From IMG/VR virus record IMGVR_UViG_3300042467_000997, positions 1 to 28,174 of that record: a stretch of 28,174 bases of DNA, one strand, 5' to 3'. The position numbers and the translations under genes were made by a program. The notes below the pieces were generated by a model. It was given only the letters and a program-made list of their open reading frames with translations. It did no database searches and was not told where the DNA came from. Positions 1 through 27,738 of the stretch are shown here, in pieces; positions within the stretch are counted from its first letter, which is position 1; each line of letters starts with the position of its first letter. The DNA is from a virus.

Positions 1-96
1 TTCTTGATGGTGGGAAGCGGCGGCTGTGATATGGCGCAACACAGATTGCCAGCAGTAAAAATACTTTTTAGTGGCGTATGTAGCTATAGCGATCAT
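1..96 (-). CDS. Partial gene, possible glycosyltransferase N-terminus
   Basis: A 32-codon open frame starts at an ATG at 96-94 and runs off the left edge. The start overlaps the stop of the upstream cupin gene as ATGA, the coupling used widely in this genome, which supports it being real. The visible protein begins MIAIATYATKKY, a hydrophobic beta-strand followed by a Thr/Tyr-rich segment. That resembles the first strand of GT-A glycosyltransferases and agrees with its position after a sugar-epimerase-like gene. No catalytic motif is in view, so the functional guess is an inference; the existence of the gene is better supported than its role. Confidence 0.55.
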   Translation of the reverse strand, partial: MIAIATYATKKYFYCWQSVLRHITAAASHHQE

Positions 97-521
97 CGTG
101 ATTCAGGATTCCAGTTATAATTAAATTCATGTGGCCCGACCCTGTCTTCGTCAGGATCATCAATGCTGTATGGTTTTGAGACAATGTTCAAAATGGCAGT
201 TTCGCGGTAACCCCAAGCTGGCGTAAATCCATGCCAAATACCAGCAGGAATTGTCACCAACACGGGAACAGAAGAAGACAATATAATGGTTTGGCTTTGG
301 CTCGTTTCGCTATTATACAAACCAAGCCTAGATGCCCCGCCAACACAATACCAACGATCTATTTGCTCCTTGTGGCGATGCCAAGCCTTGATTACGCCAT
401 GTGTGCAAGTGGTAATGTATGTCTGACCGAAACCATGGGGATCATCGGTAAGCCTGAATATTTCTGTCAAGCATCCACGGTCATCGATATTGACTTTAAG
501 CTGTTTAATTTTTGCTAACAT
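93..521 (-). CDS. RmlC-like cupin, dTDP-4-dehydrorhamnose 3,5-epimerase family
   Basis: This 142-residue protein has the hallmarks of the RmlC cupin family, which epimerises nucleotide-linked 4-keto-6-deoxy sugars. It shows DDRG at 13-16, a long strand with the conserved HRHKEQIDR at 48-56 (His48 and His50 in the cupin core), a later IWHGF at 96-100 and a PY..DDPDEDR segment near 118-127, like the family's C-terminal region. At 142 residues it is shorter than typical RmlC (about 180), so it may be a minimal or FdtA/WxcM-like sugar isomerase. It overlaps the upstream HTH gene by 7 nt and is ATGA-coupled to the partial gene at the left edge. In a phage it could supply a modified sugar for glycosylating DNA, virions or the cell surface; substrate unknown. 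Confidence 0.8.
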   Translation of the reverse strand: MLAKIKQLKVNIDDRGCLTEIFRLTDDPHGFGQTYITTCTHGVIKAWHRHKEQIDRWYCVGGASRLGLYNSETSQSQTIILSSSVPVLVTIPAGIWHGFTPAWGYRETAILNIVSKPYSIDDPDEDRVGPHEFNYNWNPESR

Positions 522-811
522 TTCGGCCTGACAAAGTTGATCGTTCTAACACATCCACTACTGCACTTAACTTTGGCCTTTTGTAGTTCCATTTTTATTC
601 CGCGATTGCCAAGGGCATTGATGTAGTTTTCAGCGTATCCGCTTTCTTCAGCGGCTTGCTTAACCGTTTTCCATCCTTTAGCGTTCATGGCCTCAATTGT
701 GGTTGTTCCGTTGCTTTCACGAAACGACCGCCAAACGCTATCCCACTCTGGGACTACAATTTGAGCATTGGGGCTTTTTGTTCTGCTAGTTTTGCTATGA
801 TGGGTTGCCAT
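515..811 (-). CDS. Small HTH-like protein
   Basis: 98 residues with the ATG at 811-809, chosen over an upstream start because AAGGAA lies about 8 nt before it and the extra upstream codons read as an antisense-like Pro/His/Arg-rich shadow of the phosphoesterase gene. Residues 50-75 (AEESGYAENYINAL and flanks) resemble a helix-turn-helix, suggesting DNA binding. The protein is basic, with three cysteines near the C-terminus (two in the SSGC/VRPKC tail region). The start overlaps the end of the metallophosphoesterase gene by 58 nt, long for this genome; a later Met is possible but would lose the conserved-looking VPEWDSVWRSF segment. It overlaps the cupin start by 7 nt. Role unknown; a small regulator is possible. 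Confidence 0.6.
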   Translation of the reverse strand: MATHHSKTSRTKSPNAQIVVPEWDSVWRSFRESNGTTTIEAMNAKGWKTVKQAAEESGYAENYINALGNRGIKMELQKAKVKCSSGCVRTINFVRPKC

Positions 812-1539
812 GTGTAGGTTCCTTTGTTGACGGTAAAGATGACGAATCCAAAGTCCACTAATCCCGTGCATCGGCGGGCTCCGTAGCGGCTCCCGAATCC
901 CTGAAGGGCTGGGGTGGTCATGGCCAGCCAGTCGGGGCCTCCCGCATAGTTGTGGTAGTGGACATGGCTTCGGATGAAGATGTCGGCCTTGGGCTGTAGC
1001 TCCCTTTCGGCCCACATGATGTTCCACATGCGGTCTCTGGCCACCGCTGTATGCCGCCCATGGGGGAGGTTGCTTGATCCTGCTGGGTGGTGTTTGAGGT
1101 CGAAAATAACGTCTTCAACGTTGACCCATTCATGCTCTCCAATTCGGGCATCCACCCGCTGGGCCACGTTGTTTTCCCAATCCTCCTCATTTCCCGTATG
1201 GTAGGGAGTGCCTCTTGTGATAACAATCTTGCAATTCTTTGCTTTCGGGATTTCGCGAATCAGCTTTACGGCCATATCACACTGCTCCTCCATGTCGGTG
1301 GTTATAAGCTCCGTGCCGCCGCTTTTGGCACCTCGCCCGTCCACCAGATCTCCGTTGAGGAAAATGATGTCGTAGGGGCCATTACGCGCAATCTGGAGGG
1401 CATACCAGTTGTAGTAGGCTCTGTTAGCCGTCACCCATTCAGCCCGCTCTTTGACGGGTTGTTCTGGGAGGTAGCCCTTGGGGGTTAGGCCAACTTTGTG
1501 GCCGCAGTGGAAGTCCGAAAGGACCGCTATTTTTTTCAT
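754..1539 (-). CDS. Calcineurin-like metallophosphoesterase
   Basis: A 261-residue protein with the ordered metal-binding blocks of the calcineurin-like phosphoesterase fold: SDFHCGH with Asp9 and His11, NGDLVDG with Asp64 and Asp67, RGTPYH at 109-114 in the place of the usual GNH block, and SHVHYH at 191-196. These residues normally hold two metal ions and hydrolyse phosphomono- or diesters. The third block has GTPYH rather than GN[HD][DE], a variant I also associate with phage-encoded members. The substrate cannot be read from the sequence; nucleic-acid ends, cyclic nucleotides or host signalling nucleotides are all possible. It starts 4 nt after the preceding gene with no Shine-Dalgarno site, and its end is overlapped by the HTH gene. 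Confidence 0.85.
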   Translation of the reverse strand: MKKIAVLSDFHCGHKVGLTPKGYLPEQPVKERAEWVTANRAYYNWYALQIARNGPYDIIFLNGDLVDGRGAKSGGTELITTDMEEQCDMAVKLIREIPKAKNCKIVITRGTPYHTGNEEDWENNVAQRVDARIGEHEWVNVEDVIFDLKHHPAGSSNLPHGRHTAVARDRMWNIMWAERELQPKADIFIRSHVHYHNYAGGPDWLAMTTPALQGFGSRYGARRCTGLVDFGFVIFTVNKGTYTWQPIIAKLAEQKAPMLKL

Positions 1540-5290: not shown

Positions 5291-6007
5291 TTAGGTTTGT
5301 TTAAAGTATTGCGGGAAGTATTGGCGTTCTGCTTTTTCGCGGGCCGCACAGGCTTCCTCAAATGTATGGAAGTATCCTAGATGAATTGACTTACGATTGC
5401 AAGTAATAGTTGCATAATATGGGTTAGTTTTATTTCGGTGGGGCGCAAACTTGACGCCCTTTTTTCCGCTTTTGTTCCTCTTGCCAGCCCGATTTTGGAT
5501 TGGGTGCGCCACTCCGTTGTGTGGGATATACACCTTTTCTTTGTCTCTGTCTGGTCGGGCAAACTCCCCGAAAACAATCTTTTCGGCAGATTTGCGGGCA
5601 GCTATGGCGTCTTCTTTTTCTTGAAACTGCCCAAGAATCTTCTTTTTGCCATCAACTGTGATATAGGCGAACCATTTCTGCTTGGTAGAAACGTAGCAGA
5701 CCCCGACATGCCCCGAAGCATTGTCAGATCGTCTACGGCGGTTCATGGCGTTCTGGCTTGGTGTCACAACCCGAAGATTTTCCCTTCGATTGTCTAGGGT
5801 GTCACCGTTGATATGATCCACAATTTGCCCCTCTGTGGCATTCATTATAAGGCGGTGCATTCGTAAGTGCCGTCCCATTTCTGTAGCACATGCATAGGGA
5901 TTGCATCCATCTGGAATAATGAACCAGTGATGTTGAATTAACTTTTCATGGTCACAATCATCTACGATTGTGAATTTATTATCGTTGAGTGGTATTTGTT
6001 TAGACAT
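5291..6007 (-). CDS. HNH homing endonuclease with two AP2 domains
   Basis: 238 residues. An HNH_3-type nuclease core is visible at about 48-84 (LRMHRLIM, VDHINGDTLDNRRENLR: His51, Asp64/His65, Asn73). It is followed by two AP2-type DNA-binding modules, at about 98-150 (GHVGVCYV..KWFAYI..GKKKILGQF..KEDAIAARK) and 179-231 (KKGVKFAP..YYATI..KSIHLGYF..FEEACAARE). This order is typical of free-standing phage homing endonucleases that cleave a gene lacking the element and copy themselves. It lies directly after the coat-protein gene, interrupting the head genes, and is best read as a mobile gene. No ribosome-binding site is apparent. Confidence 0.92.
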   Translation of the reverse strand: MSKQIPLNDNKFTIVDDCDHEKLIQHHWFIIPDGCNPYACATEMGRHLRMHRLIMNATEGQIVDHINGDTLDNRRENLRVVTPSQNAMNRRRRSDNASGHVGVCYVSTKQKWFAYITVDGKKKILGQFQEKEDAIAARKSAEKIVFGEFARPDRDKEKVYIPHNGVAHPIQNRAGKRNKSGKKGVKFAPHRNKTNPYYATITCNRKSIHLGYFHTFEEACAAREKAERQYFPQYFKQT

Positions 6008-11568: not shown

Positions 11569-13953
11569 TTAAGAAACATTTTCAAAATTGGAATCATTAA
11601 AATATGTTGCTGTGTATCCAGTAGAAATGCCTTGTGCGGTGTCAATATTCGCTATCAATGTGTTAATCGGAATGTTTGAACCACCAGCAATAATGTCTCC
11701 GCCCCAAATAGCTTGCAGTTCGCCGCCTTCATCATTAGCTGGATTTGGCGCGGAGAACGCCAGTCCAACAAGAACTGGTTCATTATTTATTAGCAAAAAT
11801 AACGGAGATCCAGAATCTCCAACTACTACATTTTTATAAAAAGCTCTTTGATTTCCATCAAGCCCCGAAACATAAATTGGTCCGTAGTTGGGGTCTGAAG
11901 ATGAAAATGGAATCTGAGTAGACGCAGAATTATTAGAAAATGCGCTTATGGTAGTAATAAGTGCTTCTTTATCTTTATTAATCCAAAAAGAACCAGAAGA
12001 AAACACAGCGCTTGTAAATTTTTTTGACGCACTTGCTGGGAGAATTTTAACAATATTAATACTTTCTGGCAAATCACTGTTAAGTAATGCTATGCCAACA
12101 TCAAAATTAACTTGAGAATTTATTGTTCTTGAAATTGTTCTTTCGACAACTGTATTTGAATTTGTGATGAAGCGAATTGTTGCACCAGTTAACGATGTTG
12201 TAATGTGCTTGGCAAACCAAATGTGCCTTGGCGTTATGGCGATGCATCCAAAGTCATCTCCATAAGCACTGTTCCAAGGGCTATAACCAGTAAGCAATTC
12301 CGCTGATTCCCCCAACCAATTTGATGCGTTTCTTGTGTATGATGGCGTAACGTCATCTCTTGTGGAAAACAATGGAAGAGAATCGTTAACATTACTTATC
12401 TCGGATATTTTGTTTAGTATTCCACTATTTGAAACTTTAAATATTAATTTTTCATCATCAATGTGTGGAACAATTGTTTTTGCATTGTCTCTGTTTGTAA
12501 ATTCACATACTGGAAGATTGTCTATGTTATAATGAAAAACACTATCAGAATTTAATGGCACAAAACCAAACACTTTATTTCTGTCTGTTGCAAGCGGGTT
12601 TATGTTAAATCCAATATTGCTGTAATTGCCAGAGTGAGATATTACACAATTGACACAACCATCATATTTAGCACTCAAATTAATCAACGTTGTTGTGATT
12701 TTTGAACAGTTATTGAAAAAACAATTTGTTAATTGCGTGTAAAAAGAAGAATTTGACACTCTTTGCGTTTCATTACTTCCAGTGTACGAACAAGAAAGCC
12801 TTGATCCTGCTATTGTTTTTGAAATAAATAAATTAAAATTACTGCTATGTTTAATGGAAATGTTTGAACTTCCTGCACCAAGTAATCTTATTGCTAAATT
12901 AACAGATGCACAGTTTTCAACAAAAACATTTGCCACTGTGGCTGCCGAAGAAAGTCCTCCAGCTTGAAGCAAAATAGCGGTGGATTCTTTAAAAGAAAGC
13001 CTTAACAATGAAGAGCTTGCCGCGCCGCGCATTAAAACGTGCGGCCTGATGACGTCACTATATCTTGTTACAGAGTTAACCGTTGGTCGAGAACACTCAA
13101 TTTTAATATCTCTAATGTTTGAACTTGTATCTAAGGACGGATTTGAAAAATCCCTACAGAATGTTGAAACATATTTAGCCTCATTACGACCACCTAAACC
13201 GCCAGACGGAACACTACCAACTGAGGGTCCAGTAAATGCTAAATCAGTACCAAATGTATAGGTGTGATCAAGATGGCAAAATGGAAGCCAATCTGACGTT
13301 CCATTACTAATAAGGTCACTGATATCAATTGGCTCGGTAGTTGTCGTTTCAATACATTGAAAAACTTGACCTGTTGCATTTCTTAAGTATTGTCCAACAG
13401 TGTAGGTTGTCCCGTTTTGCCAAAGAGGGATGGGGTTGGCTCCAGCGGTTGGATCAATGTTCCAAATTTTAAACCTTACGTTTCTCCAATCATAGGTTGC
13501 AGAAATGTCACGAAGATTGTCTTTCCTATAAGTGATAAACCCCTTTGCCTCCCTCGTTCCATCAAGATAAGTCAGCGATGGATCGTAGTGGATGATGTCT
13601 TGTGGAAAAAGATTGGAATATGCATTCTTGGAAACATTGCTGGAGCTATAAGCATACACAACAAGAGGTTCGGGCGTGGCCGCAATGGAAGCTACCGTGA
13701 ATGCCGTGCCATTGTTGTTGCTAACGTTTGCCGTGTTTGACGGGGAGATCCACTCGCTGTCGTTGGACATGTATTCCGTGACAAAGTCTGTGATGCGATA
13801 GTGAAATCCCGCCTTGAGACTCTGGCTGCCCATAAGAGACATTAACCCAGCATGGGTTACGTCGATAATCCTAGACGCATTCCCTTCCGCATAGGTGCCT
13901 GCGGTGGTGCCAGCTACTACTGGTAATGGGTAATATGCAGAGAGGGAGGCCAT
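11569..13953 (-). CDS. Tail-spike-like protein with C-terminal trypsin-like protease domain
   Basis: 794 residues. Residues 129-166 (YLDG..EAKGFITYRKDNLRDI..YDWRNVRFKIW) match a motif I know from phage tail/fibre proteins. From about 280 to 460 short Asn/Ser-rich repeating strands look like a right-handed beta-helix. The last 230 residues carry the ordered marks of a chymotrypsin-fold protease: IWFAKH with His583 (compare TAAHC), FDVGIALL with Asp618 (compare DIALL), GDSGSPLF with Ser714 (compare GDSGGPL), then LVGLAFSA. Likely role: a receptor-binding spike that digests a surface protein or cleaves itself; activity is an inference. The gene body is markedly AT-rich relative to its neighbours, suggesting recombination. 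It follows a pair of AATCCYGAAACATAATA repeats and has no Shine-Dalgarno site. Confidence 0.7.
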   Translation of the reverse strand: MASLSAYYPLPVVAGTTAGTYAEGNASRIIDVTHAGLMSLMGSQSLKAGFHYRITDFVTEYMSNDSEWISPSNTANVSNNNGTAFTVASIAATPEPLVVYAYSSSNVSKNAYSNLFPQDIIHYDPSLTYLDGTREAKGFITYRKDNLRDISATYDWRNVRFKIWNIDPTAGANPIPLWQNGTTYTVGQYLRNATGQVFQCIETTTTEPIDISDLISNGTSDWLPFCHLDHTYTFGTDLAFTGPSVGSVPSGGLGGRNEAKYVSTFCRDFSNPSLDTSSNIRDIKIECSRPTVNSVTRYSDVIRPHVLMRGAASSSLLRLSFKESTAILLQAGGLSSAATVANVFVENCASVNLAIRLLGAGSSNISIKHSSNFNLFISKTIAGSRLSCSYTGSNETQRVSNSSFYTQLTNCFFNNCSKITTTLINLSAKYDGCVNCVISHSGNYSNIGFNINPLATDRNKVFGFVPLNSDSVFHYNIDNLPVCEFTNRDNAKTIVPHIDDEKLIFKVSNSGILNKISEISNVNDSLPLFSTRDDVTPSYTRNASNWLGESAELLTGYSPWNSAYGDDFGCIAITPRHIWFAKHITTSLTGATIRFITNSNTVVERTISRTINSQVNFDVGIALLNSDLPESINIVKILPASASKKFTSAVFSSGSFWINKDKEALITTISAFSNNSASTQIPFSSSDPNYGPIYVSGLDGNQRAFYKNVVVGDSGSPLFLLINNEPVLVGLAFSAPNPANDEGGELQAIWGGDIIAGGSNIPINTLIANIDTAQGISTGYTATYFNDSNFENVS

Positions 13954-14512: not shown

Positions 14513-15253
14513 TTAGGGAGCCATTTTGGTGACGGAGAGCATTGACGATTGGATAAGCGTTGTGGCATCTGCGGAGTTGTTGATGGGATACCAGCGGTAG
14601 TTCATGGTGTTGGCGTTGCTACTGGTCAGCACATAGACAAAGCCTGCCACGGCGAATCGGCTTCCAGAGGATATGGCGGAAACATTTGCCAGCCCGATTG
14701 CTGTCGCATTTGTGCCAGAAGTAATCGATGTCAACGTAGCGTTCGCGGCTTGGCCCACGCCACTGCGATGGTTAAATTCTGAAAGATTGGTCGAGAACCC
14801 TAGTCCGTGAGCGAATCCAGAGTTGGTGGTCGCCACCCACGCAATGGCGTATTCCACGCGATAAAAGCTGTTGGCATCAAGCGACCATGAACCCATCTGT
14901 GGGTCGTTGTTGGTTGATTGCGTAACAGCGTTGAATCCCCAATTGGTTTTGGTTTGGTCGTTGGTGGTGAATTTGGTGACCGTGCGGCTGGCTACAAACG
15001 AGGAGCTTCCTGCGCCGTCTGCGGCGAGCAGCGCACCATTGGCGGCGGCTCCGCTAGGCGGGTTGCCTGCGGTCAGGGCGCCATTGGTGCTGATCAAGGC
15101 TGTGCGCGAGTTGGCGTTGGTCAAAGGCGCGAAGCGAAGGTTGTTCGTAAAGGTCAGTTCGTTGGTGCGCCCTGTAACGATGTTGCCATTGGTATCCGTT
15201 ACCATGTCGCGGACTTGGGCCATACCGCTTGCGGCAAAAGCAAGCAGTGTCAT
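14513..15253 (-). other. Buried signal-peptide module, alternative internal start
   Basis: Codon 667 (ATG at 15253-15251) begins [16 protein letters not shown], followed by [15 protein letters not shown], closely parallel to the start of the 901-residue fibre (signal, Ala-Gln, then VLVGTNGAVVQPTNF). As a separate product it would be 246 residues with a predicted cut after GMA. The Arg expected before the hydrophobic core lies upstream of the ATG, as if the original start was lost when the genes fused. Confidence 0.45.
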
Positions 15254-17251
15254 TATAGCCAAGGCAACTCGGGAAAGTGTGCCATCGTCATTAATGGTGA
15301 TCCGCCAGCGGGTGTTGTTTGGTGATTTCAAAACAAGTCCTTTGGTTGAGTCTGTGACTTCGGTGTCGTTGTTCGCGGTGAGCGTGGTGAAGGTTCCTGC
15401 GGCGGGCGTGGTGTTGCCGATGGCGGGCGGGGCGGCGAAGTTCACACGGGCGTTGTCGAAGGTGCCTGTAGTTACATCTGCGGCGGCGTGGGTGTGTGTA
15501 TCGACAGGGATGAGCGACCAATTTCCAGATGAGCCGCCGCCCGAACGCAAGCGGTATTGCTGCCCTGTGGCCGTGATTGTGACGAGCGTATTGTAAACAA
15601 GCGGCGAAAGATTTGCCACGCCACGAACCGTAATCGGCCCGCTCATTGTGCTGCCGCCGACAATGACATAGGTGTCACCAACCAAGGTGCCTTCTGCTTG
15701 TGTCGGAAGCGTCACCGTAATGCCGCCTGCATTACTGTTTGAAATTGTAATCTGCCTTGCGCGATTAGCTGGCAGCGTTTGATCGGCGCTATAATTGACG
15801 CTTGTCACCGAGAAAATCGTCTGCCCGTTGATTTGATGCGCGGCGAGTGCATCCGTTCCGCCTGTGTGGTGGGTTGATCCGTGAAGCGTGGGCTGGCGGC
15901 TGTCGGTGAGGCGGCTATCGTTACCCTGACAGGCAGTTCCAGCCGTAGATCCATAGCTGACCGTGAGCGTTCTGTTAGCCGTAAGATCTCCCCCACCTGT
16001 AAGCCCTGTTCCCGCGCTAATTGATCTACTTGTCGGCACACCTCCGATATTAGTAAGGGCGGTTGCGGGGTTGCTGACATCACTAAGATTGTTAACCTCT
16101 AAAAGCGCACCTTGCGCCGTAAGAAGCCCGCCCACATTGATTGTCCAAGCTGTGAATGGCCCGCCTGAACCTGCTACTGTATCGACATTAACCACCAATG
16201 ACGTTCCAGAGTAGCTGGTAACAAAAGCATGCATGTGTCGATCTGCATCGTATACAATGGTAACGTCCTGTGTCGGGGTGTAGCTGAGTCCTGATTGGAC
16301 GGTGAACGTCTTAGATCCAGTGGTTAGTGAATGGGAGGTTGTGGAAGTTGTGAGATAGCGGTCTCCGCGATTGGCCAACGTAAACGCCGTAGTAGCAATC
16401 TGAGTGGTATTGGTTCCAGCAGCAGCAGTGGTTGCTGTCGGGGTTCCCGTAAGAGCGGGGGAATCCAGATTGGCTTTAAGGTCTAGTGCCGTCTGGGTGG
16501 CTGTGGAAATTGGCTTTGAGACATCACTTGTGTTATCCACATTGGAAAGCCCGACATCAGACTTGGTGGCAGATGTTCCAGTTGTGACTCTACCCTTGGT
16601 GTCTACTGTGACTTTGGTATAGGTTCCCGCGCTCGCGCCCGAAGCAGCTAAAGTGGGATTGGGATATGTTCCCGTAAGATCTCCTCCTGCGGGGCCGCTG
16701 GGCGCTGTGGAGATGGTTCCCCATTCGGGGGCTGTGGCTCCGCTATTTACTTTCAGAATCTGTCCCGCGCTTCCAATTGGGAGGCGTGTATTAATTCCTG
16801 CTCCCCGATAGAGCATATCACCCTGCGTTGTGAGGGTAGATTCTCCCCCGCCTCCAGATGTGCCAAAACGCGGAACCACCTGCCATCCACGGGTGGCCCC
16901 TGTGTAAATCAGGGTAAAGTAAGCCCCCTCGACGTTACAGACCAGATTCTCGTTAAGGCTTTCAATGGGTTGGCCGTTGCGGGCAATCGTAAGAGGGTTG
17001 GTGTCGAAGGTTTCAGAAAAGTCAAAGATGTCTACTGCATCGCCATTGCTGGGATTGGGCGGAAGGGTAAGAGTAAATGCCCCTCCAGAAGTGTCAGCGG
17101 CGATAAACTGGCGGCTAGTGACCGTCCTGCTGGAAGTAACCACCTCATAGTTGATATCGGGCTGCGGGCCAGTCTGCCCCACGGGCCCCCGTTCGATGAC
17201 CTCAATGATCTCAATCTCCCTCTCTGTGATCTCAATGACCTCTTGGCTCAT
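14513..17251 (-). CDS. Tail fibre, apparent in-frame fusion of two proteins
   Basis: 912 residues. Residues 1-20 are acidic ([20 protein letters not shown]). From about 140 to 660 it is a typical phage fibre: [42 protein letters not shown], and the shaft repeats [13 protein letters not shown] and [15 protein letters not shown]. It would normally end near [18 protein letters not shown]. Instead the frame continues into [19 protein letters not shown] (about 659-678), a signal-peptide-like hydrophobic segment, and a second Asn/Thr-rich domain of 246 residues resembling the N-terminal region of the 901-residue fibre. The ATG at 15253 would allow separate expression of that part. Its start is ATGA-coupled to the adaptor gene. 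Virion fibre is likely for the first part; the fate of the second is unclear. Confidence 0.75.
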
Positions 17252-17616
17252 CGGGCAATCTCCTGATAGACCTTGGCCTTACCTGTGGCGAATGCGATAT
17301 AGGTGTAGCCTTGGTAGAGTTCGATTTCGTAGACGTTGTCGCCTGCTGTTAGGTTTGCGGCCTGTGTGGCGGTGATTTCGATTTCGATGGTGCCCGCACT
17401 CCCGCCCAATGTAATCCCGCCTCCAGAGGTCAGTGTAAGCAAAGTAGCACTATCCTTCGCGCATTCCCGAATCACCATGTTGGCCCCGTAGCCCGAAAGA
17501 TTGACGGGAACATTAGACTTGCCTTTACAGGACTTGGTCAGATAACGAAACTTCGCCGTCCATGTCTTTCCTTGGACGATTTCAATGTCTCTTTCAAGTC
17601 TCCAGTAGTTGGTCAT
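17248..17616 (-). CDS. Fibre-adaptor protein, copy B
   Basis: 122 residues, predicted all-beta. It lines up along its whole length with the 124-residue protein at 20640-21014: VQGKTW (14-19), [14 protein letters not shown] (37-50), a Gly-rich [15 protein letters not shown] centre, YEIELY (96-101) and a final VYQEIAR. The 'QG.....PV(N)L.G..A.M.IR ... Y.(I/L)ELY' pattern is one I associate with small proteins linking fibres to phage baseplates. It is ATGA-coupled on both sides, to the 901-residue fibre and to the fused fibre, which supports a module. Copy A sits ahead of the other fibre. Confidence 0.75.
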
Positions 17617-20318
17617 TTATAAACTGGTAGCCAGAATTGATTGGTTCCAACACGAATCTCAATGAAGTCATTGATCTGGTTGTTGGTTGCGGGGTTTGAG
17701 TTGGTTTGGTTGGTGGAGAAGTCTACAAACCCATTAACCACAAGATTGGTGGTTGCCGTCACAGTGCCAGTAGCTGTCAGAGTTCCAGATGCCGTGACAT
17801 TAGAGAATGTTACGTTATTGGTTTGGCCAAGTCCGAGGTTGGTGCGAGTCACGGCTTGGTTGGTGGTGTTTTCAAACTCAATAGCACGATGGAACATCGT
17901 GGCTCCTGTGTTGGTTTTGATAAGAGTCATCACCTTGTTTGTCGGGCTAACAGAATACACTGTTGCTTCGATAGGATTGGTTCCTGCTGCGGGATCAGAG
18001 GGCCCAATCATCATTAAGGCGTTGTAGCCAAAGACCGAAAACACCGCCACTCCGTTGCCGTTGGTGTTGGTTGAGCGGAAGCCGAATTGCGCGGCCTTGT
18101 TGGTAGCCTCTGAGACACCTACACGGAACAACGTTTCGTTGCTGACGGTTACGTTGTTTGACGCGATGAGGTTGGCGAGGCCAAGGAAGGCTTCGTTGTT
18201 GGTGCGGCGAACGTAAAGCAGACCGTTGTTGGTGGTGGTTTGGTTGATCGTAATGTCGCCGTTGTTGGTGATGCCAGCGAATGTAACAATATTAGTAGAA
18301 GCAAGTTGCAAGTTTGTTAATGTTCCAAGCCTTATCCCGTCTGACGAAAATGAAAGCGGCCTATGAACTGTCCACCCATTGGTGTTGGCTTCTAGATATG
18401 TAAATGATGCATAAGTAAAATAAATTGAATTTGAAGTCCTTCCAATACCAGTCAAGGACTGCCCAAGCGTTTCAGATGGATCCAAATTAATGAGTGATCC
18501 ATTGGTATTTGCCGTTATCAAAGATAAAAAAATAACATTATTTGTTGTTCCCAATCCCAAATTCGTTCTGCTTGCCGCCGCATTGGCTGTGGCGTTGGTG
18601 CCTGAAAAATAGATAGGCTCAATATAAGAAATATTATCGGCCAACCTCCATGCTCCACTGCGATACATCAACAGAACAGTCTCATCCATTTGATTCAGCG
18701 TAATAAGATTTGTTCCTACTCCTGATTGCCTGATAGCAGTTACTGCGTTTGTTGAATTGCCAAGATGGGTAATTGTTGCCCTATCTCCTTCAAATGTGGT
18801 TGCGGGGTTGGTGGGAAGTGTAACCGTATTGGTAACCCCAGATACCGAAGGAGAAAGGCTGAACAAGAAAAGATTGCGACTATTTGTTGCGGCATTTGTT
18901 GATGTTCCTGTAACATTTGTCTGGTATTGGACAGTTGTGGATATCGGGGCCGCTTGCCAGAAGTTGGTCGGGCTTACAACCTCTCCATTGGTATTGACCA
19001 AAACTGGATTGGTATTAGATCCAAAGAGTGCCGCCTGAAATGTTGTGGCGTTGCTGTTGGTTAGCCCAGTCCAAGGGAGTCCAAGGTTGGTGCGAGTTTG
19101 AGCCTGATACAATGGGCGACTTGTTGCGCCCCCAATCTGAATTGCGCCAGAATCAAATGTCCATTCTCCAAAAAATATTCTTGCTTCTGGCTCGATTATG
19201 TCATTAGTTCCCCATCTTATTACGGACTCGCTTAAATAAAGACCCCCCAAATTTACCGTTTCAAATGTCACGCTATTAGTGGCTCCAAGCCCGATGGCAT
19301 TACGGAAGTTTGTGGCATCTGTATTCGTAAGCGCAGACCAGCCTAATCCCAGATTGGTTCTGCTTACTGCCGCATTGGATGAGGCATTGGTGCCTAAAAA
19401 AAGTATAGGCTTTCTAAAAATAATTGTGCCGCCTGCCGCGCCATCAAGCGAAAAAAATTCAACACCATTTTGGTTAAAAAATAACGAGTCAGCCCCATAA
19501 GTTATGGAGTTTGTTGTTTCTCCGTCTTGGTATAATTGAATACTTTCAAATCTAACAACATTTGTTACCCCAAGCCCGATGGCAGTTCTGGCGACCGATG
19601 TGTTTGTGGCGATAAATACCGCATCACCCACTGTAGTAGATCCGAGATTTTGTCGAGCATTTGCTGCATTGGTGGCTCCTGTTCCGCCCGAAGCAATACT
19701 AAGTGTGCCAGACAAATTGGAAAAATTAACCGTGGCAATATTGGATGAAGGAATGATTCCTACAAGATTTGTAGCCTGAAGATTAGTTAGGCTTGCCCCA
19801 TTGCTGGAGGCAAGATTGCTAAGAACCGTTGAAGAAGGTTGAAATGCAGATGCGGGATTTGTCGCCGCTGTTCCCAATCCTAAAGCAGTCCTAAAAGAAG
19901 ACGCATCAGCATTTGTTAATCCAGACCAAGAAAGGCCAAGATTGGTTCTAGTCGTTGTAGGATCTGCAAACGACACATTGCCAAGAAAATATGAATTACT
20001 AGTATCAATAGTTATGGCTGCAACTCCTCTATTGACCAACCATAAAAAACCATTAAAAGCAGCTAAACCATTAGTATTGGTTCCAACTTGAACGGCAGGA
20101 TTGGCGAGGCTTCCAGTTGTAGTAGCAAGAACTCTATTAAAAGTAACATTATTTGTTGCTCCAACACCCAAGCCTACGCGGGCATTGGAGGCATCGGCGC
20201 TCCAAAAATTGGTCGGTTGAACCACCGCACCGTTGGTTCCCACCAACACATTGCGTGTTTGCGCGTAGCCCGAAACAATTAAGGCCCCAGAGATAATTAT
20301 GGAAATTAAGTTTTTCAT
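17613..20318 (-). CDS. Long repeat-rich fibre-like protein with signal peptide
   Basis: 901 residues from the ATG at 20318. MKNLISIIISGALIVSGYAQ is a Sec signal peptide (cut likely after Ala19). The mature protein is rich in Asn, Thr and Gly and carries many copies of RTNLGLGW(S/T)(A/G)LTN..A..F..A(I/L)GLG and GATN(N/S)VTF...V, plus a second copy of the TNG.VV.PTNFW block seen right after the signal. These look like a long trimeric fibre shaft. Signal peptides are not expected on proteins assembled into virions in the cytoplasm, so it may be exported and surface-displayed, or the hydrophobic N-terminus may anchor it in the particle. Base composition alternates between GC-rich and AT-rich blocks, pointing to mosaic recombination. 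It starts 4 nt after the preceding gene. Confidence 0.75.
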   Translation of the reverse strand: MKNLISIIISGALIVSGYAQTRNVLVGTNGAVVQPTNFWSADASNARVGLGVGATNNVTFNRVLATTTGSLANPAVQVGTNTNGLAAFNGFLWLVNRGVAAITIDTSNSYFLGNVSFADPTTTRTNLGLSWSGLTNADASSFRTALGLGTAATNPASAFQPSSTVLSNLASSNGASLTNLQATNLVGIIPSSNIATVNFSNLSGTLSIASGGTGATNAANARQNLGSTTVGDAVFIATNTSVARTAIGLGVTNVVRFESIQLYQDGETTNSITYGADSLFFNQNGVEFFSLDGAAGGTIIFRKPILFLGTNASSNAAVSRTNLGLGWSALTNTDATNFRNAIGLGATNSVTFETVNLGGLYLSESVIRWGTNDIIEPEARIFFGEWTFDSGAIQIGGATSRPLYQAQTRTNLGLPWTGLTNSNATTFQAALFGSNTNPVLVNTNGEVVSPTNFWQAAPISTTVQYQTNVTGTSTNAATNSRNLFLFSLSPSVSGVTNTVTLPTNPATTFEGDRATITHLGNSTNAVTAIRQSGVGTNLITLNQMDETVLLMYRSGAWRLADNISYIEPIYFSGTNATANAAASRTNLGLGTTNNVIFLSLITANTNGSLINLDPSETLGQSLTGIGRTSNSIYFTYASFTYLEANTNGWTVHRPLSFSSDGIRLGTLTNLQLASTNIVTFAGITNNGDITINQTTTNNGLLYVRRTNNEAFLGLANLIASNNVTVSNETLFRVGVSEATNKAAQFGFRSTNTNGNGVAVFSVFGYNALMMIGPSDPAAGTNPIEATVYSVSPTNKVMTLIKTNTGATMFHRAIEFENTTNQAVTRTNLGLGQTNNVTFSNVTASGTLTATGTVTATTNLVVNGFVDFSTNQTNSNPATNNQINDFIEIRVGTNQFWLPVYK

Positions 20319-20322
20319 TAGG

Positions 20323-20643
20323 TTACATTCGTTGAATCCAAACCTTGGCATTGGTCATTTCATCAAAATCATTGGGGCGTATTACTGATGGAGAGCTTTC
20401 GGCGTTGCTACCACTGACCAATTGATAAATTGCTGGAATTCCATTAATAACCAAAAAGATGCAAATTCCGACAGCATAGCTCCCAGAAGCAGTGACAACC
20501 CCATCCAAGTTGGAAGAACCGCCGCCAATCAGCCCCGTAATGGCTGGCTCTACCCGAAGTATGTTGACGCTGGGGGTTTGAAGCTGCGTTGTGCTAACCC
20601 CGATAACGCTGGAGCTTGGGATGGGAATGCAAATTTTACTCAT
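20323..20643 (-). CDS. Small fibre-region structural protein
   Basis: 106 residues starting MSKICIPIPSSSVIGV. Mostly beta-strand with Gly/Ser turns (GLIGGGSSNLDGVVTASGSY) and a hydrophobic segment (AVGICIFLVINGIPAIYQL) that looks more like a buried strand than a membrane helix. The C-terminus PNDFDEMTNAKVWIQRM is charged. No family recognised. It is ATGA-coupled to adaptor copy A and ends 4 nt before the 901-residue fibre, so it is part of that module. Module B, with the 122-residue adaptor, lacks this gene. Confidence 0.65.
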   Translation of the reverse strand: MSKICIPIPSSSVIGVSTTQLQTPSVNILRVEPAITGLIGGGSSNLDGVVTASGSYAVGICIFLVINGIPAIYQLVSGSNAESSPSVIRPNDFDEMTNAKVWIQRM

Positions 20644-22905: not shown

Positions 22906-23673
22906 ATGGCTGGACAGCGCAAGAACAAGATCGACTGGGACTTACCAGAAAACCGAATCAAAAAACAAAATGCCTTCCGACTTTATGTCGCGGGCCGAGG
23001 GACCAAGGCAATTATGACCGAGCTTGGTTTTACCTCCCCTCCCCAGCTATCGAAGTTTGTCCATAGCGAGAAGTGGGAAAAGCATGCCGAAATCTGGCGG
23101 TCTAGCCCCGAACAAGAAAACCTCTATCCTTGGGAGGTGGAGCGCCCCAATCAACTGGTTCCCGCTCCGCCAAAGATGGAGGAGATGGAAAAAGAAAAGC
23201 GGATGCAATGCATCAAGGCATTTTCGCTATTCTGCTCTGGGCGCAACGTTCCTGATATTGCTTCGGAAATCGGGGTTAGCGTGTCCACAATCAATCTTTG
23301 GAAGGAAACTCAACGCTGGGTGGCATGCCGAGAAAGGCTGGCCAACGACCAAAACCCCGCACCTTGGGAGGATTCTGATGTTCCCACCCTGCTCTCCGAT
23401 ATCACGGCCTCCATTGAGACCATGAAGAAATCTATTAAGTTTTTGACTGGTAAAGTGTTGGTTAAGGCTGCCGATGCCGCGCAAGACCTAGATGGCATGG
23501 AGGCTCTGGGCATGATGCGAAATATCAAGCAACTGGCCGAAGCCGCATCTATCAACTTTAGCGAAGGCAACAACCAGCAAAACGCGGTTCAGATCAATAT
23601 CGCCACCAAACTGGAATCGTTGAAGATCCCAGACAACAACACCTACGAGGCCGAATTGGTAGTCAATGAGTAG
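22906..23673 (+). CDS. Terminase small subunit candidate with duplicated HTH unit
   Basis: 255 residues on the plus strand. Two related units are visible: NAFRLYVAGRGTKAIMTELG (23-42) with EKWEKHAE and YPWEVERP, and KAFSLFCSGRNVPDIASEIG (104-123) with TQRWVACRE and PWEDSDVP. The second has a good helix-turn-helix (IASEIGVSVSTINLWK). Helices after about 165 (IETMKKSIKFLTGKVL, ALGMMRNIKQLAEAA) could form an oligomerisation domain. A DNA-binding protein of this size beside a large terminase is the expected small subunit, which recognises packaging sites. Identification by position and architecture, not family match. It could instead be a transcriptional regulator. Confidence 0.6.
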   Translation: MAGQRKNKIDWDLPENRIKKQNAFRLYVAGRGTKAIMTELGFTSPPQLSKFVHSEKWEKHAEIWRSSPEQENLYPWEVERPNQLVPAPPKMEEMEKEKRMQCIKAFSLFCSGRNVPDIASEIGVSVSTINLWKETQRWVACRERLANDQNPAPWEDSDVPTLLSDITASIETMKKSIKFLTGKVLVKAADAAQDLDGMEALGMMRNIKQLAEAASINFSEGNNQQNAVQINIATKLESLKIPDNNTYEAELVVNE

Positions 23674-24259
23674 TCTTAGATTCTGTTATCCCCGCAAAAC
23701 TGACGTTCCTCCACAGGGCTGGTGGATTAAGTGCCCCGTGACGGGAGAGGCTATCCATGGTGGGGACTTTGGGGACATGGTTAAGAACTGCGAGAAGAAG
23801 ATTTTGGAGCGGGGTTTGGTGCCTCCCACCGATCTCATTTCCCAAATAGAGAATGCCCTTTGTGAGCGTTTGGCGGGGTCTAGCAACTGTGTTCCTTGTT
23901 CTAGCGTTAAGCAGACCTTGGGCTTCGGAGAAATTGTCCGCTGGGTCAGGGCAATGTATAACTTTGCCACCCAATCTAAATTTCAATTGGTAGATCAAGA
24001 GGAGGCAGAGCGTAGAGCCAAAATCTGTGCGGCATGTCCGCATCAAATTTCCACCTCTGGATGTTGGGGGTGCAAGGGAATTGCAGGAATGCTTCCAGCC
24101 ATCGCGGGAGCCCGAAAGACCAGCTATGACAACCAGCTAAAGGCTTGTGGGGTCTGTGGGTGCTTCAATGCCGTGAGTGTTCATCTGCCTCTGGATGTTC
24201 AGCAAGACGCCCATCTCAGCTTTCCCGACCATTGCTGGAAGAAATCTCAAAGCGAGTAA
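23666..24259 (+). CDS. Cysteine-rich, probable zinc-binding protein
   Basis: 197 residues starting MSSLRFCYPRKTD, overlapping the previous gene by 8 nt and so probably co-translated with it. The C-terminal half holds many Cys/His: CAACPHQ, CWGCKG, CGVCGC and a final DHCW, which could bind two or more zinc ions. An earlier CVPCSS adds another knuckle. I recall uncharacterised phage proteins with the order C..CP...GC.GC....C.VCGC...V..P, function unknown. Possible roles are nucleic-acid binding or a scaffold for another protein. Its last 44 nt overlap the convergent helicase gene end. Confidence 0.75.
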   Translation: MSSLRFCYPRKTDVPPQGWWIKCPVTGEAIHGGDFGDMVKNCEKKILERGLVPPTDLISQIENALCERLAGSSNCVPCSSVKQTLGFGEIVRWVRAMYNFATQSKFQLVDQEEAERRAKICAACPHQISTSGCWGCKGIAGMLPAIAGARKTSYDNQLKACGVCGCFNAVSVHLPLDVQQDAHLSFPDHCWKKSQSE

Positions 24260-25550
24260 TCGCCTTGTTAAAGCTCATCGGAGCAATGCCAGTAGCTCCC
24301 TCGCGGTTCTTGGCCACAATGAATTCGACTGTCGGCATTTGAGAATGGTTCTTGGCGTCCTCCTCATCACAATGGAGGATTACCACCATATCACTATCCT
24401 GTTCGATAGCACCAGACCCCTTGAGGTCTGAGAGACTTGGTCTGCCTCCGCGTTTTTCGGGATCGCGATTCAACTGGGCTAGTACCAAAACTGGTACGCG
24501 CAACGTCTTGGCCAGTTCCTTAATGCCACCACTGATCTCTTCGACTTCGTTAACGCGGTTGTCCTTGCTTCGCTTGCTGTCCCCGCGCAACAACTGGAGG
24601 TAGTCGATAATGATCAAATCCAACGGTTCCTTCTGGTGGGCGCGGCGAGCCACGGCCTTGATGTAACCGATAGACTTACCAGAAGTGTCGTCGCAAAGAA
24701 TGTGGCTATCGCGCACTTCGGCGTAGGCGTTTGATAAGCTCTCGCGCTGAAACTTCGTAATGGACTGAGCGAGAATGTCGGCTGCTCGCACGCGAGCCCG
24801 ACTCCGAATCATTCTCTCCATCAGACTGACACTGGTCATCTCAAGTGAGAAAATAAGGACTCGCTTCTGGGCATCCAAGGCAACATGCTCGGCAATCTGC
24901 ATAGCAGCACTGGTCTTGCCGACTGCGGGTCTGGCCGCGAGAACAATCATGTCTCCTCCTCGCATGCCGAACATTAGGAGATCGTCCACTGGTACCAAGC
25001 CTGTGCGTATGCCAATCTTGGGCTCACCGCGCATTGTGGATTCGATGTTGTCTAGGGCGCGGTCTACTACGCTCTTAATCGACAGTTTCTCGGTGTTGTC
25101 GATCAGGTAGTCAGCCCGCATAATGCTGGTCTCCGACCAGTTCTTGAGTTCTTCCAGCTTTAGCTCGCGGTCACGGGCCTTGTGGACAATATCACCGCCC
25201 AACATCTCAAGGGAACGGCGATAGCGAGCTTCCTCAAGCTGGGGGAAATAGCGCCTCCAATTGTGGGAGGACTGGCAATAGGAGGCTATGTCTGCAAGAG
25301 TCTTGTCTCCCCCAGCATCTTCTAAGGTTGCGTTGCCATCCAGATCACTCTTGATGGAGATGTAGTCGGCATGGATGGATTTACCAACCACACGAAGGAA
25401 CGACTGGAATATCAGCTTATGCTCGTAGAGATGGAAGTGATCCTCTCTGAGGGTGGATAGCATCTCTCTTTGCTCATCAAGTTGTGCGTGGAGGAAACAG
25501 GAAAGAACGGCGCTTTCCGACGATTGGTCGAAGATGGATTCGTTGTTCAC
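24216..25550 (-). CDS. dnaB: DnaB-like replicative helicase
   Basis: 444 residues, close to bacterial DnaB length (about 450-470). An N-terminal helical domain (ESAVLSCFLHAQLDEQREML, FHLYEHKLIFQSFLRV) is followed by a RecA-like motor: Walker A ARPAVGKT (206-213), FSLEMTSVSLMERM, Walker B LIIIDYLQL (312-320), AQLNRDPEKR with the sensor region, and SDLKGSGAIEQDSD. These are characteristic of hexameric DnaB/gp4-type helicases that unwind the replication fork. It starts with GTG (25550), 6 nt after the glycosyltransferase stop, without a ribosome site, and its end overlaps the convergent plus-strand gene by 44 nt. Primase and polymerase are not in the window. Confidence 0.92.
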   Translation of the reverse strand: MNNESIFDQSSESAVLSCFLHAQLDEQREMLSTLREDHFHLYEHKLIFQSFLRVVGKSIHADYISIKSDLDGNATLEDAGGDKTLADIASYCQSSHNWRRYFPQLEEARYRRSLEMLGGDIVHKARDRELKLEELKNWSETSIMRADYLIDNTEKLSIKSVVDRALDNIESTMRGEPKIGIRTGLVPVDDLLMFGMRGGDMIVLAARPAVGKTSAAMQIAEHVALDAQKRVLIFSLEMTSVSLMERMIRSRARVRAADILAQSITKFQRESLSNAYAEVRDSHILCDDTSGKSIGYIKAVARRAHQKEPLDLIIIDYLQLLRGDSKRSKDNRVNEVEEISGGIKELAKTLRVPVLVLAQLNRDPEKRGGRPSLSDLKGSGAIEQDSDMVVILHCDEEDAKNHSQMPTVEFIVAKNREGATGIAPMSFNKAITRFEISSSNGRES

Positions 25551-25556
25551 GAAGGG

Positions 25557-26774
25557 TTAGACAACACCTTGGGCTTTTCGTTCAGCCTTTCTTGCGAGAA
25601 TCGCCTTCATGGCCTCGCTGCGGCGTTGGCGTTCCTCTGAAGAAAGCATGCGTTTTTTCTTCTTTTTAGGCGGATCTTGTTTGATTGCCCGCATTTTTTT
25701 TTCCCTTGTGGTTATACCTACAGCCTCGCACAAGACTTGGATGGGATATGGGGCGTAATTCGCCTCTTCTGATGTTTTGTTGCAAACCGTAGTACCTTGC
25801 AAACAAGTGTCTACATTTTGTGTCACTTCCTGCAATGATATGTCGGGTTCCCGAACGGGTATATGAACAATCTCAATTTCGTCTCCTACAGAGACATTGG
25901 AAAAAGCCTGTTCCTGATCGGGTATACTTTCTAATCCCATGGAATTCGATGGGATATCTAATCCCGTGGAATCTGACGGCATTACAGGTTTATCTTCGGG
26001 CATTGGAAATCCCGCAATAGCCATCTTGTGGAGAGATCCGTCTTTGCATCCGTGGATAACCACAGCTTTACTGGAGATAACTCTATCGGGACAGGTGACT
26101 CCTTGAATGGCTTGGGATTCGGGGTCTTCGGCAAAGAAGACAATCTTCCCATCCTTCCATTGGTAGTTCACACTCCTCCAGTAGGTTCGCATGAGAGGGC
26201 AGTCCCGACCAATGGCCATGAAGTTCCAGCGACAACGAACGTCCCAAGGCTCTGGAATAGATCCAGCAGAGCGGTAGGCCAAATTGTAGTTGTCGAGGCT
26301 TCGGGCCGATGGGCAGAAGTCCAAGAAATTGGGTGGATAGATGGCACTACCCACAATCATTTTGTAGATATTCTTCCCATTGGTGGCCATGCCCCCTTCG
26401 TATTGGTGGCCAAGGATGGCGGGTTCTTTGCGGAATTCGGCCTCAAGGTCATCAGCCCAGCCTTGTTTCATGGGGACACAATCGGGCTCCCAGAACATCC
26501 AAGGCTCGTTGACGGAGTAGCATTGTGCCGCCGCATCACTGAACATCTGGTTGGGGCCAAGAGGCCAACCATTGAACCCGTCTTGGGCGATGATTCTGCC
26601 GACTTCGGGAAAGCTTTTCTTCAACTCTTCGATAATATCGAATAGTAGGGCGCTATCGTTCGTGGCACATACGGTGGCTTTATGTCGCATGTTTATGCCA
26701 AAAGAGGTGATAGCTTTAGCAGATAGCAAAGCCAACTCCGCATCTCCGTTGTGGTAGGCAAAGACAATGTTCAT
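25557..26774 (-). CDS. GT-A-like glycosyltransferase with disordered basic tail
   Basis: 405 residues. MNIVFAYHNGDAEL and an internal MFWEPDCVPMKQGW (93-106), where EPDC fits the DxD-type metal/nucleotide-sugar site, suggest a GT-A fold of about 250 residues; VIHGCKDGSLH (239-249) looks like its closing segment. The remainder is low complexity: an imperfect 9-residue tandem repeat at 267-284, a Val/Thr/Cys-rich linker and a very basic end (PPKKKKKR..SSEERQRRSEAMKAILARKAERKA). A Shine-Dalgarno GAGGAG precedes its start. It may modify phage DNA, proteins or host surface; no acceptor is evident. It pairs thematically with the cupin and the partial gene at the left edge. Confidence 0.65.
   Translation of the reverse strand: MNIVFAYHNGDAELALLSAKAITSFGINMRHKATVCATNDSALLFDIIEELKKSFPEVGRIIAQDGFNGWPLGPNQMFSDAAAQCYSVNEPWMFWEPDCVPMKQGWADDLEAEFRKEPAILGHQYEGGMATNGKNIYKMIVGSAIYPPNFLDFCPSARSLDNYNLAYRSAGSIPEPWDVRCRWNFMAIGRDCPLMRTYWRSVNYQWKDGKIVFFAEDPESQAIQGVTCPDRVISSKAVVIHGCKDGSLHKMAIAGFPMPEDKPVMPSDSTGLDIPSNSMGLESIPDQEQAFSNVSVGDEIEIVHIPVREPDISLQEVTQNVDTCLQGTTVCNKTSEEANYAPYPIQVLCEAVGITTREKKMRAIKQDPPKKKKKRMLSSEERQRRSEAMKAILARKAERKAQGVV
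25930..25983 (-). repeat. 27-nt imperfect tandem repeat in glycosyltransferase gene
   Basis: Two adjacent 27-bp units (25930-25956 and 25957-25983) both begin TCTAATCCC on the forward strand and encode SNSMGLESI-like and SDSTGLDIP-like segments. The repeat lies in the disordered linker after the catalytic domain and is likely length-variable. Confidence 0.7.
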
Positions 26775-26959
26775 GTCTTCTCCTCGTCATCGAAATGGAG
26801 TGGCCAAGTCGGATGGGTGGGGTCTTCCATGCGGACGCGGACGTTCTTGTAGCCCTTGACTATAAGGGCATTGGCCACATGCTTGGCTTCGTCTTTGGAC
26901 AGGTTGTGGTTGTGGAGTTCCACCACTTTCTCTCCATAGCACACTAAAAACTTATTCAT
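26771..26959 (-). CDS. Small protein of unknown function
   Basis: 62 residues starting MNKFLVCYGEKVVEL. The alternating strand-helix pattern (FLVCYGEKVVELHNHN, EAKHVANALIVKGYKNVRVRME) resembles a tiny alpha/beta fold common among phage early proteins; the acidic end is DDEEKT. AAAGGAAA lies upstream as a ribosome site. It overlaps the glycosyltransferase start as ATGA and the upstream gene's end as ATGA, so three genes are translationally linked. Function cannot be assigned. Confidence 0.75.
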   Translation of the reverse strand: MNKFLVCYGEKVVELHNHNLSKDEAKHVANALIVKGYKNVRVRMEDPTHPTWPLHFDDEEKT

Positions 26960-27186: not shown

Positions 27187-27356
27187 GGACTCCAATACTT
27201 AATCACACGCTCAAGTATATGTCCAATACCACTCCATCCATGGTGAGGATGGTAGTGACAGGCCCACCTCAATGGAGGGTTTGACTCGTCGTTTTTAATA
27301 AGGTAGATTCCCTCAGTATCGGGCTTTGTATTGTTGTAATCGTTCCAAGTGATCAT
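27168..27356 (-). CDS. Small aromatic-rich protein, DUF551-like pattern
   Basis: 62 residues from the ATG at 27356 (MITWNDYNNTKPDTEG). The longer open frame above it is a shadow of the HNH gene on the other strand. It shows many Trp/His residues, a YLIKNDE strand, WACHYHPHHGWSG and a final VIKYWSPWPDS. The 'P...G.YL...' opening and '.YW.PWP' ending look like short phage proteins of the DUF551 type. Function unknown. Its ATG is only 7 nt from the divergent HNH start. Confidence 0.6.
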   Translation of the reverse strand: MITWNDYNNTKPDTEGIYLIKNDESNPPLRWACHYHPHHGWSGIGHILERVIKYWSPWPDSK

Positions 27357-27363
27357 AGTAGGT

Positions 27364-27738
27364 ATGACAAGAAAAACTCCACTTCGTTCAAAAACTCCAC
27401 TCAAAAGGTCGAATGGCCTCAAACGCAGCGGAAGGTTGCGGTACGCATCCCCCAAGCGCCAGCGTGAATACAAGGAGTATGCAAAAGTGAAGAAAGCCTA
27501 CTTGGCACTTCATCCCGTCTGCGAGAAATGCAAGAAGACGAAGAGTCAGGACATCCATCATAAGGCTGGCAGGGTTGGTCGCTATCTTTGCGACTACAGT
27601 CTTTTTGCCGCGCTTTGTCGAGCTTGCCACGATTTTATTCATGCCAATGGCCGAGAATCCCGCAAGCAAGGCTGGATCATTGATACAATTCATGTTCCTC
27701 AAGATCCCGACCAAAGTCAGGCTCATACTCCCGAATAA
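27364..27738 (+). CDS. Small HNH nuclease-like protein
   Basis: 124 residues on the plus strand, starting MTRKTPLRSKTPLK (ATG at 27364; a GTG at 27349 is weaker). A very basic N-terminal arm precedes an HNH-type core: CEKC (53-56), DIHHKAGR with His65/His66, and CRACHDFIHANGRESRKQGWI (Cys85, Cys88, His89, His93). The two CxxC pairs probably hold a structural zinc and the His residues the catalytic site. It resembles small phage HNH proteins such as packaging-associated or NinG-like nucleases; which is not clear. It is the only plus-strand gene in this cluster, and its promoter would have to lie in the opposing gene. Its end overlaps the lipoprotein gene by 62 nt. Confidence 0.75.
   Translation: MTRKTPLRSKTPLKRSNGLKRSGRLRYASPKRQREYKEYAKVKKAYLALHPVCEKCKKTKSQDIHHKAGRVGRYLCDYSLFAALCRACHDFIHANGRESRKQGWIIDTIHVPQDPDQSQAHTPE

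Follow-up and report, generated by a model that had tools for sequence, protein, structure and literature searches.

The glucosyltransferases of phage T4 glycosylate phage DNA, the seroconversion genes of temperate phages remodel the surface glycans of the host, and the serine-rich-repeat adhesins of bacteria are secreted proteins with dedicated transferases. Mycobacteriophages are the only phages for which the accessible portions of the sources report glycans on virions: for Che8 and Rita, in work credited to Freeman et al. 2023, they describe phage-encoded glycosyltransferases and glycans on virion proteins and name capsid and tail-tube subunits (PMC11256854, PMC12619734). The same sources count putative glycosyltransferases among the core genes of a lineage of jumbo phages, and consider that these might act on DNA, on the host or on the virion. 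A literature search that covered few subscription journals returned, among the papers listed, no report of a phage Ser/Thr-rich or mucin-like acceptor together with its transferase. Here we analyse one virus record of 28,174 bases, itself a fragment (the window, i.e., the whole stretch of DNA studied), whose left-edge transferase gene lies in relatives beside a variable Ser/Thr-rich gene, so that the phage probably attaches a sugar to the protein encoded there.

Sugar-related genes at the two ends of the window

An earlier note on this DNA had described an RmlC-like cupin at the left end and, linked to it by an ATGA, the start of a possible glycosyltransferase. The cupin gene is real (93..521 (-), 142 aa) and its TGA stop codon (95-93) overlaps the ATG of the next gene (96-94), of which the window holds the first 32 codons (1..96 (-)). 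The sequence past the left edge is supplied by contig L002, which shares 4,798 bases with the end of the window at two mismatches and adds 2,108 bases; it completes the gene (L002:4703-5734), whose 343-aa product we named GT343. Cupin, overlap and a gene of 343 or 344 codons are kept in all 12 of the closest contigs (L002-L013), and two further contigs, L014 and L015, differ only in how these genes are ordered. Differences between L002 and L003 at the three codon positions amount to 15/6/36 in the cupin and 43/14/158 in the transferase, the pattern expected of selection on protein. The start of the cupin gene is overlapped by the end of a 98-aa gene (515..811 (-)), after which the pair is inserted, and upstream lies a calcineurin-like phosphoesterase gene (754..1539 (-); PF00149, 2e-5) that was found in the relatives compared at sites both with and without the pair.

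The cupin scored above the cut-off for PF14667 (Polysacc_synt_C; 4e-9, 37 bits, cut-off 28.7), and below those for FdtA (PF05523; 18.3 bits, cut-off 23) and RmlC (PF00908, dTDP_sugar_isom; 15.1 bits, cut-off 27), while its homologue in L014 reached 28.7 bits against PF05523. Weak PDB matches comprised QdtA, an FdtA-type isomerase and Cap5F, and residues Y35, H48, H50 and H97 are invariant in the 17 phage cupins aligned. A scan of genome contigs yielded 38 confirmed cellular relatives, the best of them 42% identical, in metagenome-assembled genomes of many phyla. Among the products of the two nearest genes on each flank of these cellular cupins (135 proteins, with those over 900 aa excluded), raw counts gave 23 RmlD and 23 NAD-dependent epimerase matches, in overlapping sets, as well as seven DegT aminotransferases and six nucleotidyltransferases. 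Given its family and the sugar-nucleotide loci in which its cellular relatives reside, the phage cupin most likely acts on sugar nucleotides, which supports the earlier note's reading of it as a sugar-modification gene.

Searches by sequence gave no convincing match of GT343 in Pfam, PHROG or the PDB, and three GT343 proteins gave no PF00535 (Glycos_transf_2) hit at an E of 1 or below. No relative was confirmed in the genome-contig scan, where 26 stretches fitted two peptide patterns and none of them was confirmed, nor was there any match among 50,697 phage records; named phage records had no match to the cupin or GT405 either, and gave one weak match to the terminase. Viral contigs, by contrast to all of these, contained 115 confirmed relatives. 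The counts that follow draw on the best 80 of them together with earlier lists, and identical GT343 copies were counted once, leaving 70 distinct loci.

The fold was approached through an AlphaFold2 model built from a 42-row alignment (pLDDT 81.8, pTM 0.78). In the PDB, Foldseek returned 152 matches with an E of 0.001 or less, with glycosyltransferases at the top and the collagen galactosyltransferase COLGALT1 as the best (E 6e-7), at modest TM-scores of 0.16-0.48 among the matches listed. The best 50 VIA-align rows, at Z 17.9-15.5 over 172-227 residues, are all titled glycosyltransferases or polysaccharide synthases; they include hyaluronan synthase, the fucosyltransferase WrtF (Z 17.6, 174 aligned residues, 2.6 A), mannosylglycerate synthase, COLGALT1, TarP and TarS, which we take to share the GT-A fold. 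Viral structure matches (BFVD) also include named glycosyltransferases. E108-x-D110, T275-Q276-D277 and D301-H302 are invariant in all 42 rows of the alignment, and the DxD-like motif E108-x-D110 sits in the model after a strand at 103-107; by analogy with well-known GT-A enzymes, these may be the metal-binding and catalytic residues. The model further contains a helical stretch at 172-235. The left-edge gene product is thus clearly predicted by its model to be a GT-A glycosyltransferase, and would represent a glycosyltransferase family missed by the sequence libraries searched. A left gene of some other kind, the first half of what the earlier note had named as evidence against its reading, is therefore not what was found.

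The 405-residue protein at the other end, called GT-A-like in the earlier note, corresponds to a reading frame (GT405, 25557..26774 (-)) whose start is overlapped by the end of a 62-aa ORF (26771..26959 (-)). A homologue of this ORF immediately precedes GT405 in 55 of 72 loci. Directly downstream of GT405 lies the gene of a DnaB-type helicase (24216..25550 (-); PF03796, 2.9e-75). GT405 has 118 confirmed relatives in viral contigs, and dnaB directly follows it in 80/80 loci of the best 80. In alignment A3 (42 rows) the N-terminal ~260 residues are conserved, the linker is variable and a conserved basic tail forms the end. E96-x-D98 is invariant in all rows of A3 and in the ten of A4, seven of which are 24-29% identical to the window's protein. 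A model from the close-relative alignment reached a pLDDT of only 42.7, too low for a fold search; PDB sequence searches with alignments A2, A3 and A4 gave nothing convincing, and a profile comparison detected no relation between GT343 and GT405. Distant relatives (24-32% identity, best E 2e-17) were found encoded right after or beside GT343 in 9 of its 70 distinct loci, and the seven of these nine that were aligned share GWP, N75, E96-x-D98, D178, H241 and other residues with the window's protein. These neighbours with common residues support GT405 as a probable GT-A-like transferase and tie the two families together, short of proving the fold.

The link that had been drawn between the two ends holds to the extent of these adjoining relatives, yet the ends differ in kind, since the left pair is optional (present at 7/49 sites, see below) and GT405 is always found before dnaB (in the best 80 relatives). 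Moreover, GT405 was found in just three of the seven GT343-bearing records of the window's lineage, the other four being 30-47 kb long and maybe fragments, which counts against a fixed partnership. Some GT405 relatives, in L181 (8744-10516), L183, L185 and L215, are 543-591 aa long with an extra C-terminal part; the stretches PRCGTT and FIRPPVDR of the L181 protein presumably recall sulfotransferases, and Pfam returned nothing for the extra parts of the L181 and L215 proteins.

Elsewhere in the window, a 794-aa protein encoded between the portal candidate and the fibre genes (11569-13953 (-)) contains the stretch VVGDSGSPLF, which we take to resemble the active-site serine motif of trypsin-type proteases, and for which protein Pfam gave nothing. 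Two fibre-like proteins carry hydrophobic, signal-peptide-like stretches that are odd for phage tail proteins, one inside the protein at 14513-17251 (-), which matches PHROG tail families, and one near the start of that at 17613-20351 (-). Whereas most late genes and that of the terminase large subunit share one strand, the other strand carries a candidate gene for the terminase small subunit together with a 197-aa gene (22906-24259 (+)). HNH endonuclease-like genes are located at 5291-6007 (-) and 27349-27738 (+); the former, with an HNH and a weak AP2 match, adjoins the capsid candidate and is missing there in some relatives.

An optional cassette and its Ser/Thr-rich neighbour

A scan with the N-terminus of the product of a conserved gene, p791, gave 67 loci. 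The insertion site, from p791 to the 98-aa gene, is complete in 49 distinct loci; the other 18 were excluded as duplicates, as truncated within the site or for want of a recognisable marker. Cupin and GT343 are present in 7 of the 49 complete sites of the window's lineage. One GT343-bearing relative, G001 (72,849 bases), has an exact 123-base terminal repeat and is probably complete; besides the cupin, GT343 and GT405 it encodes a GT2-type protein (PF00535), a DUF3431 protein and two methyltransferases. A further three relatives, of 68-70 kb (G008, G015 and G016), contain homologues of GT405 and of the 98-aa gene, and GT343 was searched for in them and not found. At the same site, G015 has two DUF3431 genes, G008 a Cys-rich 550-aa gene and G016 a 278-aa gene with a HIDHDVF stretch that we assume to be transferase-like. 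Since the same site holds other genes in these relatives, cupin and GT343 form an optional, exchangeable cassette.

The pair also occurs in a second phage group, represented by 17-kb stretches where few core genes of the window are seen, and in this group GT343 is followed by the cupin; the order thus differs between the groups, and the pair has been kept or formed in two arrangements. The cupin adjoins GT343 in only 33 of the 70 distinct loci, and in 28 neither a cupin nor a DUF3431 nor a GT405-like gene lies within 2.5 kb. The two small methyltransferase genes of G001 stand in a row with two unannotated genes (L290:4265-7282 (-)), after a gene that we regard as primase-like from its CPFHREKSPSF stretch.

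Beyond GT343, and tail to tail with it, lies a Ser/Thr-rich gene, which in G001 encodes 622 aa with a combined Ser and Thr fraction (S+T) of 0.254 and in L002, from the window's own population, at least 389 aa at 0.26. In the second group a Ser/Thr-rich gene of ~440-860 aa shares the strand of GT343 and commonly stops 18 bases ahead of it, and in eight of these loci it is preceded by a homologue of p290 as well. Overall, 65 of the 70 distinct loci adjoin a gene with an S+T of 0.215-0.394 (median 0.302), compared with a median of 0.130 and a highest value of 0.289 for the 151 remaining ORFs of 400 or more residues in these loci, and the neighbour is the most Ser/Thr-rich ORF of that size in 59 of the 61 loci that permit the comparison. 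BLASTP groups these neighbours into 26 clusters, of which the largest has 28 members. Three of the five exceptions (L169, L226 and L230) end too soon, and two (L225 and L231) have no such neighbour despite a flank of at least 4.8 kb.

In the 49-site set, all seven cassette sites contain a p290 homologue and a gene of 602-702 aa at S+T 0.254-0.328, whereas none of the 42 cassette-free sites has an unassigned gene of at least 300 aa at 0.25 or above (highest 0.225). The corresponding Fisher test (p = 1.2e-8) overstates the association, as the threshold of 0.25 was chosen after the values had been seen and the test ignores shared descent. Short genes of 131-194 aa at S+T 0.252-0.284 occur in three cassette-free sites, p290 occurs in one, and the site of L367, like that of G016, has a 278-aa possible transferase gene and no Ser/Thr-rich partner. 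High Ser/Thr content is also found elsewhere in these phages: the neighbour in G001 is only second of 45 ORFs, behind a 191-aa ORF at 0.325, and phage fibre proteins are rich in Ser/Thr in any case, those of the window's own phage reaching 0.25 and 0.23. Neither the Ser/Thr-rich nor the p290-type proteins tested had an informative PHROG or Pfam match, so that their structural role is putative. In G015, which lies outside the 49-site set, a p791-type protein of 1,186 aa (L337:5820-9377; S+T 0.575; 42% identical to p791 over 77 residues) is encoded beside the two DUF3431 genes and contains roughly 800 residues of SSTNSSTQ-like repeats, an arrangement that fits the idea of a transferase with its acceptor.

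Sugar supply and candidate acceptors

The nine related records searched gave no match to PF00483, and PF16363 and PF04321 were each found in one of them, in both cases G011. There, downstream of GT343, an RmlD-like gene lies at 2.4 kb and a GDP-mannose-dehydratase-like gene at 3.6 kb, with one for ribonucleotide reductase in between, a gene set that agrees only loosely with a 6-deoxy sugar. Judged from these nine records, the phage probably does not synthesise its sugar de novo; as no family of sugar-nucleotide synthesis was seen in them besides those of G011, the substrate is probably a sugar nucleotide of the host that is altered by the cupin. The proposal that the phage makes and attaches a modified sugar is accordingly narrowed to its modifying and attaching parts.

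We infer the identity of the sugar, the acceptor, its location in the virion and any activity of GT405 along the following lines. The cupin would epimerise or isomerise a host-made, nucleotide-activated sugar, probably a 6-deoxy-4-keto form, and GT343, translated from the start codon that overlaps the cupin stop, would move it onto hydroxyl groups of the hypervariable Ser/Thr-rich protein encoded just beyond, which is probably fibre-like and part of the virion. The gene of GT405 lies among those for replication, and this enzyme may act in the initiation or elongation of a glycan. That the cassette alters a host nucleotide sugar and GT343 glycosylates the neighbouring protein, with GT405 as a separate transferase, is the reading we favour, at somewhat better than even chances. 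A more far-reaching version, which we put forward tentatively and at rather less than even chances, holds that in at least two phage groups a virus-only GT-A enzyme, GT343, is dedicated to O-glycosylating a virion protein of hypervariable, mucin-like character, that enzyme and acceptor are exchanged together (as p290, Ser/Thr-rich gene, GT343 and cupin), and that other transferase and acceptor sets occupy the same site, such as the two DUF3431 genes and the ~800-residue Ser/Thr-rich repeat protein of G015.

Of the three targets raised by the earlier note, DNA, virion and host surface, a Ser/Thr-rich phage protein is thus favoured. Glycosylation of phage DNA in the manner of T4, with GT405 beside dnaB as the main enzyme, would account for the constant position of this gene in the best 80 of its 118 relatives and for its basic tail, as a DNA-acting enzyme might have; but relatives of GT405 adjoin GT343 in other phages, and PF00303 (the thymidylate-synthase family) was found in none of the nine related records, including the probably complete G001, in a search whose positive control matched in 9 of 14 named genomes. 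PF12851 gave 0/9 as well, but since no control matched in that search, the result does not count against a TET/JBP route. As the thymidylate-synthase-type hydroxymethylase was not found in these nine records, we disfavour T4-type modification and consider a DNA target very improbable.

Remodelling of a host surface glycan (O-antigen or capsule) against superinfection deserves more weight, even if we think it unlikely: the cassette site is an exchange hotspot, the cellular cupins sit in sugar-nucleotide loci, GT343 resembles the surface-polysaccharide transferases WrtF, GtrB, TarP, TarS and RmlT, and the cassette might lie beside a receptor-binding gene because both are co-exchanged as host-range genes. 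What the cassette accompanies, however, is high Ser/Thr content rather than gene variability as such: the cassette-free sites hold variable genes too, and those of at least 300 aa reach an S+T of 0.225 at most. The same resemblance of cupin and transferase to surface-polysaccharide enzymes would suit a general auxiliary module that acts on the host's own polysaccharide and has no dedicated phage acceptor, an explanation we find highly doubtful given that GT343 is tied to one kind of phage gene and had no confirmed relative in the genome-contig scan or the 50,697 phage records.

Comparison with known systems

If glycosylation of the Ser/Thr-rich neighbour by GT343 is correct, a system of this kind would be widespread among uncultured phages. 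A single transferase family would be linked genetically to the protein that it modifies, and sequence would suffice to predict that protein; the link would also explain the high Ser/Thr content kept by a variable and probably host-contacting protein. The rule we offer is that the Ser/Thr-rich gene goes wherever GT343 goes.

At the level of the enzymes, GT343 shares its predicted fold and its E-x-D motif with GT2-type GT-A enzymes such as WrtF, TarP/TarS or hyaluronan synthase, as well as with COLGALT1; it differs in having no sequence match to PF00535 or to PDB chains of this kind. The cupin keeps in its alignments the H-x-H pair of QdtA and of the FdtA-type isomerase, yet it departs from the FdtA/QdtA, RmlC and Cap5F C-terminal cupin families in passing the threshold of PF14667 only. 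GT405 is reminiscent of the T4 DNA glucosyltransferases as a phage transferase encoded near replication genes; unlike in T4, no thymidylate-synthase-type hydroxymethylase accompanies it in the nine related records. As in the serine-rich-repeat adhesins, transferase genes stand beside a Ser/Thr-rich gene, with the long SSTNSSTQ-like stretch of G015 as a further likeness, but the adhesins are secreted bacterial proteins and here the genes are those of phages. Che8 and Rita, as far as the accessible portions of their descriptions go, have phage-encoded glycosyltransferases in common with the phages analysed here, and glycans are reported there on virion proteins, with capsid and tail-tube subunits named; what sets the present phages apart is the likely acceptor, a hypervariable protein rich in Ser/Thr whose gene adjoins that of the transferase.
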